This document shows positions 34,042-40,031 of a DNA stretch of 40,031 nt, one piece after another. The translations under genes were made by a program, and so were the position numbers. The first letter of the stretch is position 1; every line of letters begins with the position of its first letter. The stretch lies in IMG/VR virus record IMGVR_UViG_3300048037_000107, positions 1 through 40,031 of that record; one strand, 5' to 3'. The notes below the pieces were generated by a model. It had not been told where the DNA came from and made no database searches. It saw only the letters and a program-made list of their open reading frames with translations. Source of the stretch: a virus.

Positions 34042-34251
34042 ATGGCAAAATCCGGTGCATCTAAAGGTGCTAAAAAAATTGACGCATTTAACGATGGAAA
34101 GCTAGAGGGTGTAAATGTTGCATCCATGCCTGACCATGTGTTTGAGTCTATACAAAGACAGTATGGGAACAAAAAGTATGGTGATTACACTATTGAAGAC
34201 AAAAAGAACGTGATTAACTATTACAAAAAACAAAAGAAAGGCAAAGTATAA
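34042..34251 (+). CDS. Small hypothetical protein before small terminase
   Basis: 69 residues, basic (KSGASKGAKKIDAFNDGKLEG, DKKNVINYYKKQKKGKV). SMPDHVFESIQRQYGNKKYGDY is its most distinctive stretch. No known family. The stop overlaps the small terminase ATG by one base. Confidence 0.6.
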   Translation: MAKSGASKGAKKIDAFNDGKLEGVNVASMPDHVFESIQRQYGNKKYGDYTIEDKKNVINYYKKQKKGKV

Positions 34252-34514
34252 TGGATGAACTAAAGAAACTACCTAGAAAAGCAACAGAAGAAACCTTTAA
34301 TGAGCTACACTATCTTGTTACAGAGGACTTTCTACATAGAATAAAAAGTGGAGAAGCGACTACACAAGATCTGAAAGCAGCTTGCGATTGGCTAAAAACC
34401 AACGACATAACAGGTGTTGCCTACGATGGTAGTCCTTTAGATAAGCTAAACAAACTTCTACCTACTGTTGACCCTTCACTCGTTAAGAGGAAAGTATATG
34501 GCAAAAACTTCTGA
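34251..34514 (+). CDS. Small terminase (DNA maturase A), T7 gp18 family
   Basis: 87 residues (T7 89). ATEETFNELHYLVTEDFLHRI, SGEATTQDLKAACDWLK and DITGVAYDGSPLDKL are recurrent in small terminases of marine T7-like phages; SGxAxxxDLxAAxxWL-type helices fit the DNA-recognition subunit. It would select concatemer DNA for packaging with the large subunit. In T7 it lies immediately before gp18.5; here the large subunit is 2.6 kb away, with three genes between. Confidence 0.82.
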   Translation: MDELKKLPRKATEETFNELHYLVTEDFLHRIKSGEATTQDLKAACDWLKTNDITGVAYDGSPLDKLNKLLPTVDPSLVKRKVYGKNF

Positions 34515-34743
34515 ATACTACAAGAAGAATCCGAAAGCTGCCGCTAAAAGGCGTAAGCAGCAGAAGAAATACAACAAAACACCAAAAGGTCTAGCAATTA
34601 GAGTCAATGCAAACAAACTTAATAGAAAACTTGGAACTTATGGCAACCGTGACGGAATGGATGCCGCCCATTATAAGGGTAGTAAAACCAAAGGCAGAAA
34701 ACAAAAGCCATCTATTAACCGAAAAAGCAGAACTAAAAAATGA
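34498..34743 (+). CDS. Basic hypothetical protein associated with the HNH gene
   Basis: 81 residues from ATG 34498, overlapping the terminase end by 17 bases; AAGAGG at 34485 is a good ribosome site. Highly basic: YYKKNPKAAAKRRKQQKKYNK and NRKLGTYGNRDGMDAAHYKGS. A similar protein often precedes HNH genes in cyanophages. Possible DNA-binding helper of the nuclease; no evidence beyond charge and context. It ends in an ATGA overlap with the nuclease gene. Confidence 0.65.
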   Translation: MAKTSEYYKKNPKAAAKRRKQQKKYNKTPKGLAIRVNANKLNRKLGTYGNRDGMDAAHYKGSKTKGRKQKPSINRKSRTKK

Positions 34744-35066
34744 CCCCATTACTACCTAACCCTGACCATTATTTACACAATTTAATAACCATGACAAGTT
34801 CAGATTCTAAACGGCTCTGGAGAAGAGCCATTAAAGAGCACTTCAATTGTACATGTGTTTATTGCGGAGAAACTTATGATTTACAAAAACTCACCATTGA
34901 CCACGTACGTCCAAAATGTAGGGGCGGAGAAGATGTGGCAACAAATGTTGTACCGTCGTGTAGAAGATGCAATCAGGAAAAAGGTAGTAAAAACTGGAGG
35001 GACTGGATGAGGTCGACATTTGGCATTACTGATAGAGAACAAACTATTTTATCACACATTAGATGA
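34740..35066 (+). CDS. HNH endonuclease
   Basis: 108 residues. The zinc ribbon pairs CVYC and CRRC, the catalytic LTIDHVRPKCRGGEDVATN and NVVPSCRRCNQEKG show H-N-H in standard order. HNH nucleases beside terminases can aid packaging cleavage (as in HK97-like systems) or be homing enzymes. The small size and operon position between terminase subunits favour a packaging role, but that is inferred. Overlaps both neighbours (ATGA). Confidence 0.9.
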   Translation: MTPLLPNPDHYLHNLITMTSSDSKRLWRRAIKEHFNCTCVYCGETYDLQKLTIDHVRPKCRGGEDVATNVVPSCRRCNQEKGSKNWRDWMRSTFGITDREQTILSHIR

Positions 35067-37126
35067 ATGAAGAAGACGAACTAGATCCGATTGAAAAGGA
35101 ACTAAAAGAAGCACAAGAACAGTACGACGCTGAAAACCAACAGGTCTACGATGAAGTTACTAAAGGTAATGAAGAGATACGTAGAAAACGTACTGAAGAT
35201 GATGATGATGAACAGCTAGAACTACCACTTGAGTCACGTAATTTGGCTCGAGTAGGTACTGGTTTAGCTTTTGAAGTAGGAGCTAACAGTTTACTAGATG
35301 CACTAACATTTGTACCGGCAACTCAAGCTGTCGGATCTGCTGTTATTAACACAATAGCACAAGGTATACGTGGCGGTAAGTTTAGTTTTGGTGAAGTACT
35401 AGGATCAGCTGCGGCTAGTCAAATACCCGGTTTAGCACAAGGTAAAGCTATAACTAAAGCTGGTAGACTAACTAGGGCTGCTGGTACAGGTGCTGTATCT
35501 GGTGCAATAGAAACTACCAGTATAACTGCTGTAGATGAAGGCAGATTGCCTACAGCTCAAGAGTTTGGTCTAGGAGTTGGAGCTGGTGGTGTACTTGGAG
35601 CTGGATTTGCACAAGCTGCTGATCTTGCAGACCCAAGAATTACTGGTCTATTTAGAGATTTACGAGCTAGAATAAATGGTAGTCAAACGCCTTTTCTTCA
35701 AGGCAGTGTAGGAGCCGGATATATTGGTCCAGTATCGAAAGGTTACTTTGAACCCGGAGCTGATGCTGTTGTACCATTACCAAAAGGAGCACCATTTGAT
35801 GCTGATACAGTTAACGACTACGTACAAAGAGCTTACATTCATAGAGCCGAAAGAGTAAAGGAAGGCGGTAAAACAAACTTGATGAAAGGTTTTGACGAAA
35901 TATTACTAAATAAGTCTAATCAAGAATTTATTTTAGTTAAAAAACGTGTACTTAAAAACAAACAAGTGCCTGCTGCTTTTGAAAACTATGACTTAAAAAG
36001 TGTCTTTAATGTTGAAGAGGCGATTGTAGAAAAATTAGGTTATGAAATGAAGCAAGACCCAGACGTTAAATTTTTACAATTAATTAGAAAAGAACTAAAC
36101 AACATTAAACAGCAAGATCCTAAATTATTTTTAACAAACCTTATGGAATATGGAGATGCAGCTTACTTAGAACATAAAGTCGCTAGACGTATGGCTGGTA
36201 AGTTTTGGAAAAGAGTTGAAAAACGTAATCCAGAAGATATAAAAAATGGTTTATTTCAATGGACTGGTGCTACTAACCGTAATACCTTAAAGAATTTACG
36301 TTTGTTATTTGACCCTAATTACAAAACATTAAAAGATACTACTGAACTTAGATTAAATAATTTAGTTAAAACTAAGAAATTACCAGATAATGGAGAACCA
36401 GAAGGTTTTGTCATAACTATTGAAGATCCAAATGAAGCTGCTTTTAGTGCTAAGAGTTTATTTGTACGAAGTAACCCCGGTAATTTACAAGTTAGAAAAG
36501 CTGGAGATGGTCGAGTAGTTGGTATTATACCTGACTTCTATCGTCAAATATATAGCACACAATTTAAAACTGCATATAACAAAAACTTTGGAGCACTTGC
36601 TAGCCCTAATGTTGATATAAAAATTAGAGCACGAGCTGGTGAAACTATAGATCAGTATAGAGAACGGATTATCAATAATATGCTTGATGATGCAGTATCA
36701 GGTAGAGGTGTGCTGTCTGAAGAAGATTATCTCAACGATTTAGGTATGTTTTATAATACCTTTGAAACATTCCAAAAAAATACTAATACAACTTGGGTAC
36801 GTAAACCTAGCTGGGTAGAAGAAATACAAACCGGAAAAAATAATTTCGCTGATCCAGCGGAGGCTGATATACAGGAATTTAATATTAGAGATCTTGATGG
36901 TAATATTATAGAATTAGATGTTGATACTGAAAATGCACTTAGAAACTTGAAAGAACTTGAAGATTTACTAAGAAACCTACCTAGAGAAACTACAGGTAGA
37001 TTTAAAGGCAGTGTATTAACAAGTAAACGTAAAATTGCTCGTGATCTACGTAAAGATATAGATGCTATAAGACAAAAATATAACTTAGGCAAGTACAAAT
37101 TTAACCAAAACGAACTTGATATATAA
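35063..37126 (+). CDS. Large unrecognised protein between small and large terminase
   Basis: 687 residues. It has an acidic coiled-coil-like start (1-50, EKELKEAQEQYDAENQQ and EEIRRKRTEDDDDEQ), a Gly/Ala-rich partly hydrophobic region at about 60-190 (VGSAVINTIAQGIRGGKFSFG; AAGTGAVSGAIETTS; GVGAGGVLGAGFAQAA), and a long hydrophilic remainder with no motif I know. Composition of the middle recalls the membrane-seeking segments of gp16. It could be an ejected virion protein or a toxin-like or defence-related factor. Overlaps the HNH and TerL genes by 4 and 1 bases, so it shares their operon. Confidence 0.75.
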   Translation: MNEEDELDPIEKELKEAQEQYDAENQQVYDEVTKGNEEIRRKRTEDDDDEQLELPLESRNLARVGTGLAFEVGANSLLDALTFVPATQAVGSAVINTIAQGIRGGKFSFGEVLGSAAASQIPGLAQGKAITKAGRLTRAAGTGAVSGAIETTSITAVDEGRLPTAQEFGLGVGAGGVLGAGFAQAADLADPRITGLFRDLRARINGSQTPFLQGSVGAGYIGPVSKGYFEPGADAVVPLPKGAPFDADTVNDYVQRAYIHRAERVKEGGKTNLMKGFDEILLNKSNQEFILVKKRVLKNKQVPAAFENYDLKSVFNVEEAIVEKLGYEMKQDPDVKFLQLIRKELNNIKQQDPKLFLTNLMEYGDAAYLEHKVARRMAGKFWKRVEKRNPEDIKNGLFQWTGATNRNTLKNLRLLFDPNYKTLKDTTELRLNNLVKTKKLPDNGEPEGFVITIEDPNEAAFSAKSLFVRSNPGNLQVRKAGDGRVVGIIPDFYRQIYSTQFKTAYNKNFGALASPNVDIKIRARAGETIDQYRERIINNMLDDAVSGRGVLSEEDYLNDLGMFYNTFETFQKNTNTTWVRKPSWVEEIQTGKNNFADPAEADIQEFNIRDLDGNIIELDVDTENALRNLKELEDLLRNLPRETTGRFKGSVLTSKRKIARDLRKDIDAIRQKYNLGKYKFNQNELDI

Positions 37127-38862
37127 TGGAAAATTCCCTAGCCCTATTACAGCAAGACTTTAAGTTGTTCTTGCAAGCGTTATGGCATGAATTACATCTT
37201 CCACCTCCTACGAGGGCTCAATATGCGATTGCAGATTACTTGCAGACTGGTCCCAAGCGACTACAAATACAGGCGTTTCGGGGCGTTGGTAAGAGCTGGA
37301 TTACTGGTGCTTTTGTTCTATGGACTTTATTTAATGACCCCGAAAGAAAGATCATGATTATCTCTGCGTCTAAAGAACGTGCAGATAACATGTCTATCTT
37401 CTTACAGAAACTTATTATAGAGACACCATGGTTAAATTTTTTAAGACCCAAATCCGACGACTCAAGGTGGTCACGTATAAGCTTCGACGTAAACTGCTCG
37501 CCGCATCAAGCACCTTCAGTGAAAAGCGTGGGTATTACTGGTCAGCTAACTGGATCACGTGCGGATCTTATGATTCTGGACGACGTAGAAGTCCCCGGGA
37601 ACAGTATGACGGAGTTGATGCGTGAAAAACTTTTACAACTCTGTACGGAAGCGGAATCTATCCTTACACCCAAAAGTGATAGCCGTATTATGTATCTCGG
37701 GACTCCTCAGACTACTTTTACTATTTATCGTAAGTTGGCAGAGCGTTCGTATCGTCCCTTGGTTTGGCCAGCAAGATACCCAAGAGGTAAAAACATTACC
37801 CAATACGAAGGACTACTAGCTCCTGAGTTACAGGTAGATATAGATGAAGGGGTCGATGAATGGGCTCCTACAGATGACCGCTTTACTCACGAAGACCTAC
37901 TCGAAAGAGAGTCAAGTATGGGGCGGTCTAACTACATGTTGCAGTTTCAACTAGACACAAGCTTATCAGATGCAGAGAAATTCCCACTTAAGATGGCTGA
38001 TCTCATTGTTACTAGCGTTAATCCTGATACTGCACCCGAGAATATCATATGGTGTTCCGATCCAGCCAATGTCATCAAAGATGCTCCAACAGTGGGACTA
38101 CCGGGAGACTATTTCTATTCACCTATGCAAATGCAAGGGGAGTGGTTGGAGTATGACGAGACCATATGCAGCGTGGATCCTTCGGGAAGAGGAACAGACG
38201 AAACAGCGGCTTGTTATCTATCCCAAAAAAACGGAATCATCTATCTGCATGAAGTGCGAGCATACAGAGACGGGTACAGCGATACTACCTTGCTTGACAT
38301 CCTTAAGGGATGCAAAAAGTATGGAGTTACATCGCTGGTTATCGAAACAAACTTTGGAGACGGAATTGTAAGTGAATTATTTAAGAAACACCTTATTCAA
38401 ACGAGACAGAATATCAATATTGAAGAGGTTAGGGCAAATGTCAGAAAGGAGGACAGGATCATTGATAGTCTTGAGCCTGTGCTTAACCAACACCGCCTTG
38501 TTGTTAACCGCAGTGTTATTGATTGGGACTATACCTCCAACAAAGACAGTCCACCTGAAAGTAGGCTCTTATATATGCTCTTTTACCAAATGAGCCGTAT
38601 GTGTAGACAGAAAGGAGCAGTTAAACACGACGATAGGCTAGATTGCCTAGCTCAGGGTGTTAAATACTTCATAGATGCTCTACATATCAGTGCATTAGAC
38701 CAAATAAAAGACAGAAAAGCAGAAGAGTTTGCTAATATGCTTGCAGATTTCTTAGACAACCCCGAATCTAGTGCTAATCATCTAGTGTTAGGGATGTCTT
38801 TAGAGCAGCGAGAAGAAGCAAGAGGACATGACACTGGGAACTCAGTTCCTAACTGGCGTTGA
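37126..38862 (+). CDS. Large terminase (DNA maturase B), T7 gp19 family
   Basis: 578 residues (T7 586). The packaging ATPase has Walker A at 51-57 (FRGVGKS) and Walker B LMILDDVE; coupling follows in MYLGTPQT. The C-terminal nuclease domain shows CSVDPSGRGTDETA with the catalytic Asp, and the late KHDDRLDCLAQG stretch. It pumps DNA through the portal and cuts the concatemer at the terminal repeat. Its stop is two bases before the candidate promoter at 38865. Confidence 0.96.
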   Translation: MENSLALLQQDFKLFLQALWHELHLPPPTRAQYAIADYLQTGPKRLQIQAFRGVGKSWITGAFVLWTLFNDPERKIMIISASKERADNMSIFLQKLIIETPWLNFLRPKSDDSRWSRISFDVNCSPHQAPSVKSVGITGQLTGSRADLMILDDVEVPGNSMTELMREKLLQLCTEAESILTPKSDSRIMYLGTPQTTFTIYRKLAERSYRPLVWPARYPRGKNITQYEGLLAPELQVDIDEGVDEWAPTDDRFTHEDLLERESSMGRSNYMLQFQLDTSLSDAEKFPLKMADLIVTSVNPDTAPENIIWCSDPANVIKDAPTVGLPGDYFYSPMQMQGEWLEYDETICSVDPSGRGTDETAACYLSQKNGIIYLHEVRAYRDGYSDTTLLDILKGCKKYGVTSLVIETNFGDGIVSELFKKHLIQTRQNINIEEVRANVRKEDRIIDSLEPVLNQHRLVVNRSVIDWDYTSNKDSPPESRLLYMLFYQMSRMCRQKGAVKHDDRLDCLAQGVKYFIDALHISALDQIKDRKAEEFANMLADFLDNPESSANHLVLGMSLEQREEARGHDTGNSVPNWR

Positions 38863-38864
38863 GC

Positions 38865-38887
38865 GATCACGCACTTATACAGGGGAG
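38865..38887 (+). promoter_or_regulatory. Candidate phage RNA polymerase promoter at the genome right end (phiOR-like)
   Basis: The sequence GATCACGCACT followed by TATACAGGGGAG starts just after TerL. It shares TCACGCACT and the TA-x-AG start segment with the site at 11235. The predicted first base is G 38882, giving a GGGGAGGAG leader similar to T7 GGGAGA. In T7 the phiOR promoter lies at the same place (after gene 19) and helps replication start and concatemer processing. Confidence 0.72.
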
Positions 38888-38936
38888 GAGAAGGGTGGAC
38901 TCTTTCCCTGTAACCTAATATCCTCTGATTGGATAT
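38879..38936 (+). other. Two hairpins at the 5' end of the right-end transcript
   Basis: ACAGGGGAGGAG at 38879-38890 pairs with CTCTTTCCCTGT at 38900-38911, giving 12 pairs with two G-T and a nine-base loop; it starts at the predicted transcription start. ATATCC/GGATAT at 38918-38936 forms a second, six-pair stem. ACCTAATA occurs twice, at 38913 and 38937. No T-run follows, so these are more likely RNA-stabilising or processing signals than terminators. Confidence 0.65.
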
Positions 38937-38966
38937 ACCTAATAGACCTCCACTAACTTTAAAACC

Positions 38967-39122
38967 ATGAGAATATTCGCAGCAATTGAGCGTATATTAC
39001 TGGATAGATGGAGTAAGATAAAGCATAACTTAGGCATAAACAAGTGGCCTCTCTTAAACCGTAAAGAACAGCAATTACAGCTCAAGAAACACTATCTAGA
39101 ATCATTACTGGATAAAAAATGA
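38967..39122 (+). CDS. 51-residue protein after terminase (T7 19.5 position)
   Basis: MRIFAAIERILLDRWSKIK and then HNLGINKWPLLNRKEQQLQ, LKKHYLESLLDKK. Amphipathic-helix-like and basic; no membrane segment, unlike T7 gp19.5, although size (49 in T7) and location agree. No clear ribosome site. It is the only gene-like ORF in the 39-kb end segment before 39511. Confidence 0.5.
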   Translation: MRIFAAIERILLDRWSKIKHNLGINKWPLLNRKEQQLQLKKHYLESLLDKK

Positions 39123-39510
39123 CATAAATTTGGGAAGCCTATTATACGTGCAGCACAGGTTGCAATCGCCCCATAGGGGTCGCAGTATAATATAGCAGCT
39201 CAGTCTCATTGCGTCTCGAGCGTCTGACGAGACTCAGCGGAACAAGGACGTAACACACTGTAGACACAGCGTAAGACTCGTCAAGGTGCGGTGTACCGTT
39301 CACAATCAACGCAACATGGACGCAACATGAGACTAGACTAATGTGTCGCTATCTGTAGGCATCGCAGTCTTAGACCAGTATCAATCAGTATTAGACTAAG
39401 ACTCACAATCATGTGCGACTCAAATGGGATGTGTTGTACTGCTCAAATATCATGTTAGTCTCAGATGAATCTATTATAATTAGTATATAAGAGATAAGGA
39501 GATTCCAAAC
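39123..39510 (+). other. Non-coding, repeat-rich right-end region (candidate terminal-repeat/concatemer junction)
   Basis: About 390 bases without a convincing ORF. It holds a hairpin-like CCCC-ATA-GGGG near 39169-39179, an inverted repeat GTCTCG/CGAGAC (39213-39233), a tandem ACGCAACATG twice (39309 and 39320), an 8-bp inverted repeat AGTCTTAG/CTAAGACT (39366-39403) with CAGTAT doubled in its loop, a TATAAT-like box at 39186-39191, and the AGTCTCAT repeats listed separately. This is where T7-like phages have terminal repeats flanked by short repeat arrays. The end itself cannot be read from one assembled copy. Confidence 0.55.
39452..39480 (+). promoter_or_regulatory. Sigma70-type early promoter candidate before 39511 gene
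   Basis: ATGTTA at 39452-39457 as -35, exactly 17 bases to a perfect TATAAT at 39475-39480. The transcript would start about 39488, in front of the AAGGAG ribosome site at 39496. Host RNA polymerase should use it. The -35 is weak, but the -10 and context are good. Confidence 0.7.
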
Positions 39511-39711
39511 ATGACAAACATTAAGACACAAGATAAGACAGCCTTCGGCAGAACATTACATTACGTTACAGATCCAGTCCAAGCAGACGCACTTCAGACT
39601 CTAACTGGTAAGAAAACATTAACAGATAAAGATATTGTTTGTTTACAAATATTAGGATTACAAGTTAACGGTGTTAATTATGTAGAACAATTACAATTAG
39701 TAGGAGTTTAA
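39511..39711 (+). CDS. Small early protein
   Basis: 66 residues: MTNIKTQDKTAFGRTLHYVT, then DPVQADALQTLTGKKTLTDKD and CLQILGLQVNGVNYVEQL. A related FGRTxxYVTDP-x-ALTGKKTL pattern occurs in small cyanophage proteins near early promoters. AAGGAG at 39496-39501, nine bases upstream, fits well. Because it follows a host-type promoter at the genome end it is presumably expressed immediately on entry. Function unknown. Confidence 0.75.
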   Translation: MTNIKTQDKTAFGRTLHYVTDPVQADALQTLTGKKTLTDKDIVCLQILGLQVNGVNYVEQLQLVGV

Positions 39712-39715
39712 TATA

Positions 39716-39913
39716 ATGAATCATCAAAGATTTAAGTTTTATAAACATTCTACTGAATATTACAGACAATTAAGTAATTCGATTACGCACTTAGAAGAGA
39801 ATTGTAAAGATATTAATTACATAGTATTACCATCTACAATTAAATATAATCGTAAATCAAAATTTATTAAAAGTAATAATAATACATATAAGTCTCATAA
39901 GAAAGTAGGGTGA
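39716..39913 (+). CDS. Small basic early protein
   Basis: 65 residues, starting MNHQRFKFYKHSTEYYRQLSN, very AT-rich with many Lys, Asn and Tyr. TAGGAG at 39701-39706 is a good ribosome site nine bases before ATG 39716. It forms an operon with the 39511 gene. Its base composition is more AT-rich than the rest of the window, as often seen for early anti-host genes, but no family is recognised. Confidence 0.65.
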   Translation: MNHQRFKFYKHSTEYYRQLSNSITHLEENCKDINYIVLPSTIKYNRKSKFIKSNNNTYKSHKKVG

Positions 39914-39987
39914 GTCTCATGATTCTCACTCTCATCACAATCAGTCTCATGCGACACAGTATACTCATCGGAGATTCCACACATCTC

Positions 39988-40016
39988 ATGACAGTCTCAT
40001 GTTGAGATGCTATAAT
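39988..40016 (+). promoter_or_regulatory. Strong sigma70-type early promoter candidate at the window's right edge
   Basis: ATGACA at 39988-39993 matches the -35 consensus in five of six positions, the spacer is exactly 17, and the -10 is a perfect TATAAT at 40011-40016. It faces out of the window to the right, toward early genes that are not included. A weaker box TATACT at 39960 with poor -35 lies upstream. The 118 bases from 39914 hold no gene. Confidence 0.78.
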
Positions 40017-40031
40017 ATAAGTATAGAGACA

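Follow-up and report, generated by a model that had tools for sequence, protein, structure and literature searches.

A palindromic site at predicted early promoters and in the predicted terminal repeat of an uncultured clade of marine cyanopodoviruses

Among the viruses that commonly kill Prochlorococcus and Synechococcus are the cyanopodoviruses. In T7, short imperfect repeats lie beside the direct terminal repeats. Operators made of tandem palindromes are known for the ribbon-helix-helix repressors MetJ and ParR (parC). Among activator sites, the pho box is made of direct repeats with an 11-bp period and the MotA box of T4 lies near -30, both replacing a good -35 element about 10-11 bp before the -10 box. 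Operators at phage early promoters and short repeats beside T7-like terminal repeats are, then, already known. Direct repeats one helical turn apart at the major early promoters are described for Apl of phage 186 in the accessible part of PMC7498355. The ends of P-SSP7 (Tiamatvirus) were sequenced from virion DNA and comprise a 206-bp direct terminal repeat (accessible part of PMC3350473). P-SSP7 also encodes pMarR (PSSP7_011), described in the accessible part of PMC9692554 as a phage-coded dimeric regulator of host-polymerase transcription that binds downstream of the start; it was the one studied regulator of cyanopodovirus early transcription in the literature covered. Neither the motif described below nor any operator within the terminal repeat of a cyanophage was found reported in the open PMC literature, and the words promoter and repeat are absent from the accessible part of PMC4646655. 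What is new here is a combination: in a T7-like cyanophage clade, a palindromic, helically spaced array within the predicted terminal repeat occurs together with two promoter-registered modules, and no regulator is recognisable.

The stretch of DNA analysed (the window) is the whole of IMGVR_UViG_3300048037_000107, a linear virus contig of 40,031 bp; features lie on its plus strand unless stated otherwise. Its genes include psbA and those for ribonucleotide reductase, capsid, tail and terminase, and the closest DNA to its TerL gene was found in cyanophages P-SSP2, P-SSP3 and P-SSP7. Its source is an uncultured marine cyanopodovirus of a psbA-bearing clade; psbA, with 83-88% identity to many cyanobacteria, does not settle the host. 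The terminase large subunit gene, terL (37126..38862; phrog_38, E=2e-114; 76% DNA identity to P-SSP2 over part of the query), is the last of the large late genes ahead of the termini. A small ORF of 51 aa (38967..39122) separates it from the predicted left cut; the ORF was detected by tblastn in part of the clade and had no family match at the cut-off. An HNH endonuclease gene (34740-35066) precedes terL by about 2 kb, with a gene for a DNA packaging protein (34251-34514) nearby; HNH proteins adjoining terminases can participate in packaging. The contig opens inside a T7-like RNA polymerase gene, with the C-terminal 172 aa present (1-547), and breaks off at 40031 in the early region, past two early genes. 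Position 40031 is therefore just a contig or assembly end, and the sequence-only reading, which took it for the genome end, was wrong on this point. The remainder of the RNA polymerase gene and several kb of early genes are absent from the record.

The last 909 bp of the window contain six exact copies of the 8-mer AGTCTCAT, five forward (39202, 39891, 39913, 39943 and 39993) and one reverse (39327), and the remaining 39.1 kb has a single further exact copy (11653, reverse). The claim of a sixfold repeat in both orientations was borne out: dinucleotide shuffles of the 909 bp gave a mean of 0.09 copies, six copies were reached in 0/1000, and the most frequent 8-mer in any of the 1000 shuffles never exceeded four. 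When one mismatch was allowed, the whole window yielded 43 matches vs 42.07 expected, and since the word is not enriched at this level, the unusual feature is the clustering of exact copies. The doubled word ACGCAACATG (39309 and 39320) and the inverted repeats noticed earlier in the same region were also recovered. Chance clustering or an assembly artefact might be suggested by the short word length, the only point found in its favour; six copies in none of 1000 shuffles and matching positions kept in dozens of contigs make this explanation hardly conceivable, and we regard it as refuted by conservation. GANTC was also frequent (11 in 909 bp vs 94 in 39.1 kb), at least partly because the motif itself contributes.

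On sequence grounds, the AGTCTCAT copies are the edges of a longer 9-bp palindrome, TGAGWCTCA. Matches to TGAG-N-CTCA at 7/8 positions or better number 15 in the window, nine of them within the last 909 bp (2.3% of the sequence). Four units form a tandem array (39200..39236), starting at 39200 (TCAGTCTCA), about 39210, about 39219 and 39228 (CGAGACTCA). The array follows a -10-like box, TATAAT (39186..39191), which is conserved in relatives and is designated P0. Such an array was present downstream of P0 in 23 of 44 loci containing gene A66, the first early gene, and these represented 19 distinct sequences. Arrays were selected by G[AT]CTCA in unit 1, units 2 and 3 being outside the rule and unit 4 being taken where G[AT]C occurred at +26 to +29; across the 19 distinct arrays the units lay at 0/+10/+19/+28, with G[AT]C at +10 in 13, at +19 in nine, at +28 in 16 and at +27 in three, and seldom elsewhere. 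Unit 4 was TGAGWCTCA in 15 of the 19, either T-centred (TGAGTCTCA, 12) or A-centred (TGAGACTCA, three), and the centre of unit 1 was T in 14 and A in five. A centre that flips while both half-sites are kept would be expected if a symmetric dimer recognised the site on DNA; it argues against an element acting at the RNA level. The array resembles MetJ and ParR operators in its tandem short sites about one helical turn apart and in overlapping a promoter; unlike them, it is accompanied by no ribbon-helix-helix protein at the Pfam cut-off among the 29 ORFs scanned (see below). It likewise resembles the helical-turn direct repeats at early promoters of phage 186; Apl differs in phage type, in its role in excision and, as far as the accessible part of PMC7498355 goes, in site sequence.

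The array and the P0 box before it fall inside a predicted terminal repeat. P-SSP7, whose ends are given in the accessible part of PMC3350473, has the same junction order as the window (terL, small genes, terminal repeat, early genes), a similar left-edge element and a right-edge sequence of the ATCTGTTG/ACCTGTTG type, and its repeat is 206 bp long vs 208 predicted here. In P-SSP7 a GCAGAAATGTCTGAGGTC element precedes the TATACG start of the repeat, the end of which adjoins ACCTGTTG; in the window ACATAAATTTGGGAAGCC is followed by TATACG at 39143, and ATCTGTAG occurs at 39351. By homology of the TATACG start and the ATCTGTAG right flank to the mapped P-SSP7 ends, a direct terminal repeat of 208 bp is predicted at about 39143..39350. 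Just left of it lies a conserved element, AAATTTGGGAAGCCTAT (39126..39142), which is unique in the window and similar to the element before the mapped left end of P-SSP7; the left-edge pattern, AAAT[TG]T..GA.G.C-like plus TATACG downstream of terL, had a unique match at 39116-39148. Unlike the window, P-SSP7 has no AGTCTCA array and no 7/8 palindrome in the 1900 bp after terL, carries talC in place of the 51-aa ORF, and encodes pMarR.

The edge rule derived from these features was built with P-SSP7 and the window's clade in view, and its right-edge word alone is common; applied to 93 loci with at least 700 bp after terL, it returned 206 for P-SSP7 and 208 for the window, and the lengths obtained in 50 of the 93 were 113-245. 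No edge pair was found by this rule in the other 43, including P-GSP1, NATL1A-7, S-RIP1, S-B28 and S28-C3. In one relative (L034, 95% TerL identity) the contig stops at the base aligned with 39350, where the repeat is predicted to end; this supports the placement, short of proof, being one of 47 contig ends inspected. Earlier, a terminal repeat had been expected in this region and the window end had been taken as the genome end; the first part agrees with the prediction at about 39143-39350 and the second does not. The predicted lengths were grouped at about 113-126, 135-149, 168-179 and 206-226 bp, which suggests block gain or loss. The rule may be used to place terminal repeats in metagenomic cyanophage contigs.

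In the 31 loci for which both edges were found, the predicted terminal repeats contained 74 copies of AGWCTCA (A or T centre), and the reversed-word control gave none. At least one copy was present in 23 of these repeats; the other eight (L036, L014, L026, L027, L063, L081, L084 and L086) had none. Six of the eight nevertheless retain the arrangement at promoter PA described below, while L026 and L063 do not by that rule, and the promoter copies are thus the more constant part of the pattern. In the window, an exact reverse-strand copy of AGTCTCAT (39327..39334, minus strand) is located near the right end of the predicted repeat. Just right of the predicted boundary, an inverted repeat without assigned strand (39366..39403) has motif-like arms (AGTCTTAG / CTAAGACT) and is partly conserved in the alignment; a conserved hairpin was rejected here, as its arms are motif copies and the hairpin is, by eye, broken in several relatives.

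Two further promoter-like modules, PA and PB, lie before gene 39511 and after gene 39716, respectively. The upstream part of PA (39397..39422) is a conserved block with palindrome-like TAAGACTCA (39397), TCACAATCA (39403) and TGCGACTCA (39414), matching the palindrome at 7/8. It is followed by a conserved putative operator copy, TTAGTCTCA (39455..39463), located 11 bp upstream of a -10 box, TATAAT (39475..39480), which is conserved in relatives. In PB, a distal element, TCACAATCAGTCTCATGCGAC (39935..39955), precedes a proximal element, TCTCATGACAGTCTCA (39984..39999), in which two TCTCA words are 11 bp apart. Between these words, and overlapping both, lies a -35-like ATGACA (39988-39993), which together with the -10 box TATAAT (40011..40016, with an upstream TGC) gives an 11/12 match. 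Additional motif copies, TAAGTCTCA and the perfect palindrome TGAGTCTCA, occur at the end of gene B65, the second early gene (39889..39920). Both modules close with a (T/A)TCTCATGACAGTCTCA-like sequence and then TATAAT. As had been noted from the letters, two copies fall between -35 and -10: 39993 at PB, which is exact, and 39457 at PA (AGTCTCAG, 7/8). With starts placed by distance from the -10 boxes, sites at PA and PB lie between -35 and -10, and those at P0 at about +3 to +39. Seven promoter-like sites were counted in the 909 bp, compared with 4.7 +/- 2.5 in shuffles; sites resembling the sigma70-like promoters proposed earlier are present, their number does not exceed chance in the window alone, and their support is conservation in relatives.

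Modules counted as PB had to contain the distal word and a GCTATAAT preceded by CTCA at 8-13 bp, and in all 35 distinct modules the gap from CTCA to TATAAT was exactly 11 bp; these are counts from homologous modules, and shared descent explains part of the rigidity. The distance from distal to proximal element was 50 bp in 26 of the 35, 59 in seven, 60 in one and 110 in one. At PA, TCTCA with a gap of 9-12 bp to the -10 box occurred in 38 of 44 loci (11 bp in the window, 39458-39480). The window's PB fits TCTCA-N6-TCTCA-N11-TATAAT, and 92 copies of AGWCTCA were present in 32 PB regions, with none for the reversed-word control. The expectation that the repeats would be conserved near promoters in relatives was thus upheld.

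We consider it about an even bet (a probability of roughly 0.5) that these sites are putative operators for a regulator of host-polymerase early transcription, probably phage-coded and dimeric and most likely repressing. TGAGWCTCA would be the binding site of this regulator, a small dimeric DNA-binding protein that the phage probably encodes. On phage entry, host RNA polymerase would fire P0, PA and PB; the regulator would then fill the tandem palindromes cooperatively, overlapping all three promoters, and occupancy would change promoter output, most likely lowering it as the phage polymerase takes over. The analysis shows the sites, their palindromic form and fixed spacings, their restriction to this clade and their position on the predicted terminal repeat; protein binding, phage coding of the binder and repression we infer. 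Repression is favoured since a phage-coded binder could not be required for the initial round of transcription, except if it entered together with the injected DNA. The operator function suggested earlier for these repeats is supported in its geometry (35/35 PB modules and 38/44 PA loci), and no binding protein was found among the ORFs scanned. A promoter for the phage polymerase was considered and rejected: the copies do not spread beyond the early region, late genes having almost none (AGTCTCA occurs in the other 39.1 kb twice on the plus and three times on the minus strand).

The rigid 11-bp register and the poor -35 of PA would also fit an activator of the PhoB or MotA type. PB in particular resembles a PhoB/OmpR box, with direct repeats that end 11 bp before the -10 box; an activator bound to TCTCA-N6-TCTCA could replace the -35 element and recruit host RNA polymerase at PA and PB. 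Consistent with this, the PA -35 hexamer is variable among relatives while TCTCA is largely kept, and MarR of P-SSP7 activates a promoter of the host through a site lying downstream of that promoter's start (accessible part of PMC9692554). However, PA and PB are presumably the first promoters used, so that an activator must be injected or host-derived, and the pattern was not enriched in 12 cyanobacterial genomes. The PB -35 is near consensus (ATGACA, and TTGACA in two relatives), a palindromic array downstream of P0 is an unusual position for an activator, and pMarR itself was not found in the 21 clade and neighbour contigs examined. The window also differs from pho and MotA boxes in sequence and in its palindromic array copies, and no response regulator or MotA protein was identified. 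We therefore view activation as possible and rather unlikely.

Relatives were collected from IMG/VR, 29 loci through the first early protein and the best 80 of at least 597 through TerL, and enrichment was calculated for the 37 loci that contain gene A66 and extend at least 1000 bp beyond terL. AGTCTCA was the commonest 7-mer after terL in these A66 loci, with 173 copies in 55.6 kb (3.11/kb) and two for the reversed word, compared with 14 in 204.8 kb (0.068/kb) upstream. Two or more copies were found in 32 of the 37 loci, the exceptions being L036, L063, L076, L014 and L026. In contrast, 40 loci without A66 contained nine copies in 61.5 kb (0.146/kb), against eight of the reversed word, and at least two copies in a single locus. 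Positions relative to A66 were also kept, at about -310, -282, -183, -54, +402, +432 and +482. An exact DNA search with the distal element TCACAATCAGTCTCATGCGAC, which made no use of protein sequence, retrieved 33 stretches in IMG/VR viral contigs; among the 27 newly numbered loci (several on contigs already met), A66 or B65 was detected by tblastn in 26, and the exception, L202 (1.7 kb), lies on a contig already in the A66 set as L030. The sites are restricted to this clade. No comparable array built on another word was found in cultured phages. P-SSP2 and P-SSP3 each had one TTAGACTCA near the right edge, and the predicted terminal repeat of P-SSP2 (L113:6652-6760) had its own ATCAATTAACGCGGGC-like repeats, different in sequence from the window array.

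Another suggestion was that the copies are repeats for replication or packaging, counterparts of the T7 short repeat arrays, and serve as sites for terminase or an end-processing protein. The 74 AGWCTCA copies in the predicted terminal repeats of 31 loci and the closeness of the predicted repeat ends to the array are in line with it. T7, too, has short imperfect repeats close to its direct terminal repeats. However, the copies track the early-gene block (A66) rather than the terminase, which is conserved: P-SSP7-like phages without the motif share about 80-83% TerL identity with the clade, and P-SSP7 itself lacks the 7/8 palindrome over the 1900 bp mentioned above. Eight of the 31 terminal repeats are free of copies, six of them with a PA site, and about 750-850 bp separate the PB copies from the predicted left end. 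Unlike the T7 arrays, the copies are palindromic and promoter-registered; they lie inside the repeat and at early promoters on its early-gene side, the terL side (38863-39142) has no exact copy, and the proposed T7-type flanking arrangement did not hold up. The greater constancy of the promoter copies and the existence of TerL-similar phages without the motif argue against a packaging role, which we consider improbable, and for a role in early transcription.

The location of the array within the predicted terminal repeat would place a copy at both ends of every virion genome, the left copy being among the first DNA to enter the host. It is conceivable, if improbable, that the array acts as a switch through which the close of early transcription is coupled to genome-end processing: a single phage protein would fill the terminal-repeat palindromes as well as PA and PB and silence host-polymerase transcription across the concatemer junction, leaving terminase free to work, and this regulator would stand in for pMarR.

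Candidates for the proposed regulator were sought among the early genes. The first, A66 (39511..39711, 66 aa), has relatives in viral contigs and an AlphaFold2 model with pLDDT 79; it gave no tblastn match in phage records, and its model had no match among solved structures. The viral matches of the model were small uncharacterised proteins, one of them in S28-C3, a phage without the array in which the A66-like gene is about fifth in the early block. A66 was rejected as binder on the lack of a solved-structure match and the occurrence of a structural relative in this array-free phage. The second gene product, B65 (39716..39913, 65 aa), has relatives and a basic C-terminal half, and was likewise set aside, its model consisting of one helix only (mean pLDDT 72.5). 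No helix-turn-helix or ribbon-helix-helix Pfam match at cut-off was detected in 29 ORFs (early ones from L010, 13, and L035, six, plus 10 small ones from the window), a scan that remote homologues may escape and that, for the window, covers the part of the early region the contig contains. The matches above cut-off in these ORFs were DUF3574, pyrimidine-dimer glycosylase, an Api92-like domain, DUF6321, DNA packaging protein and HNH domains. The pMarR family (phrog_9665) was found in P-SSP7 and P-SSP2, and was absent from 21 of 21 IMG/VR contigs of the clade and its neighbours, many of them fragments; three exceed 44 kb, and L010 spans the region from A66 into the RNA polymerase gene. The proposed regulator would resemble pMarR, as described in the accessible part of PMC9692554, in being phage-coded, dimeric and from a related phage, and would differ from it in belonging to a clade in which phrog_9665 was found in 0/21 contigs.

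Alternatively, the sites could be those of a host regulator, copied by the phage to tap into the host's own control. Use of host factors is common among early promoters of phages, and TGAGWCTCA exceeded its reversed control in eight of 12 cyanobacterial genomes (below in two, tied in two), with low numbers per genome (3-13 sites, control 1-7). In contrast, the promoter-register pattern was not enriched in these 12 genomes (five matches vs 14 for the reversed control), and the double-TCTCA pattern was absent from all of them; other cyanobacterial genomes, that of the true host among them, could differ from the 12. The lack of enrichment of the PA and PB patterns points to a phage-coded binder, and we consider a host regulator quite improbable. 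A dispersed motif of host type was similarly not supported by the 12 genomes, in view of the low counts and the lack of promoter-pattern enrichment. A large uncultured clade (one exact 21-bp element in 33 IMG/VR stretches) has rigid, conserved promoter sites and no detectable pMarR, and the identity of its early-switch protein is now directly testable with short DNA probes.

Several additional features of the early region were observed. A 109-aa early protein (phrog_9569, L010:5750-6079) encoded upstream of the RNA polymerase is kept in the clade and also present in P-SSP2 and P-SSP7. A 93-aa early protein (L010:3054-3335) matched DUF3574 and, weakly, phage S-adenosylmethionine lyase (E 1.2e-4, below cut-off); it is possibly an anti-restriction enzyme. 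A second repeat, TCACAATCA, occurs three times (39300-39308, 39403-39411 and 39935-39943), two of them directly beside motif copies. Its core, ATTGTGA, shows an enrichment of about 97-fold after terL in the clade, and the repeat may represent a second site for a protein within the promoter modules. Finally, CGCAACAAGGACG-like words recur at 39241-39329 and, in relatives, downstream of PB, with CGCAACATGGACGCA near 39310 and ACAAGGACGCA before the next gene in relatives. GGACGCA is about 52-fold enriched, and some of the CGCAACAAGGACG-like words may include ribosome-binding sites.
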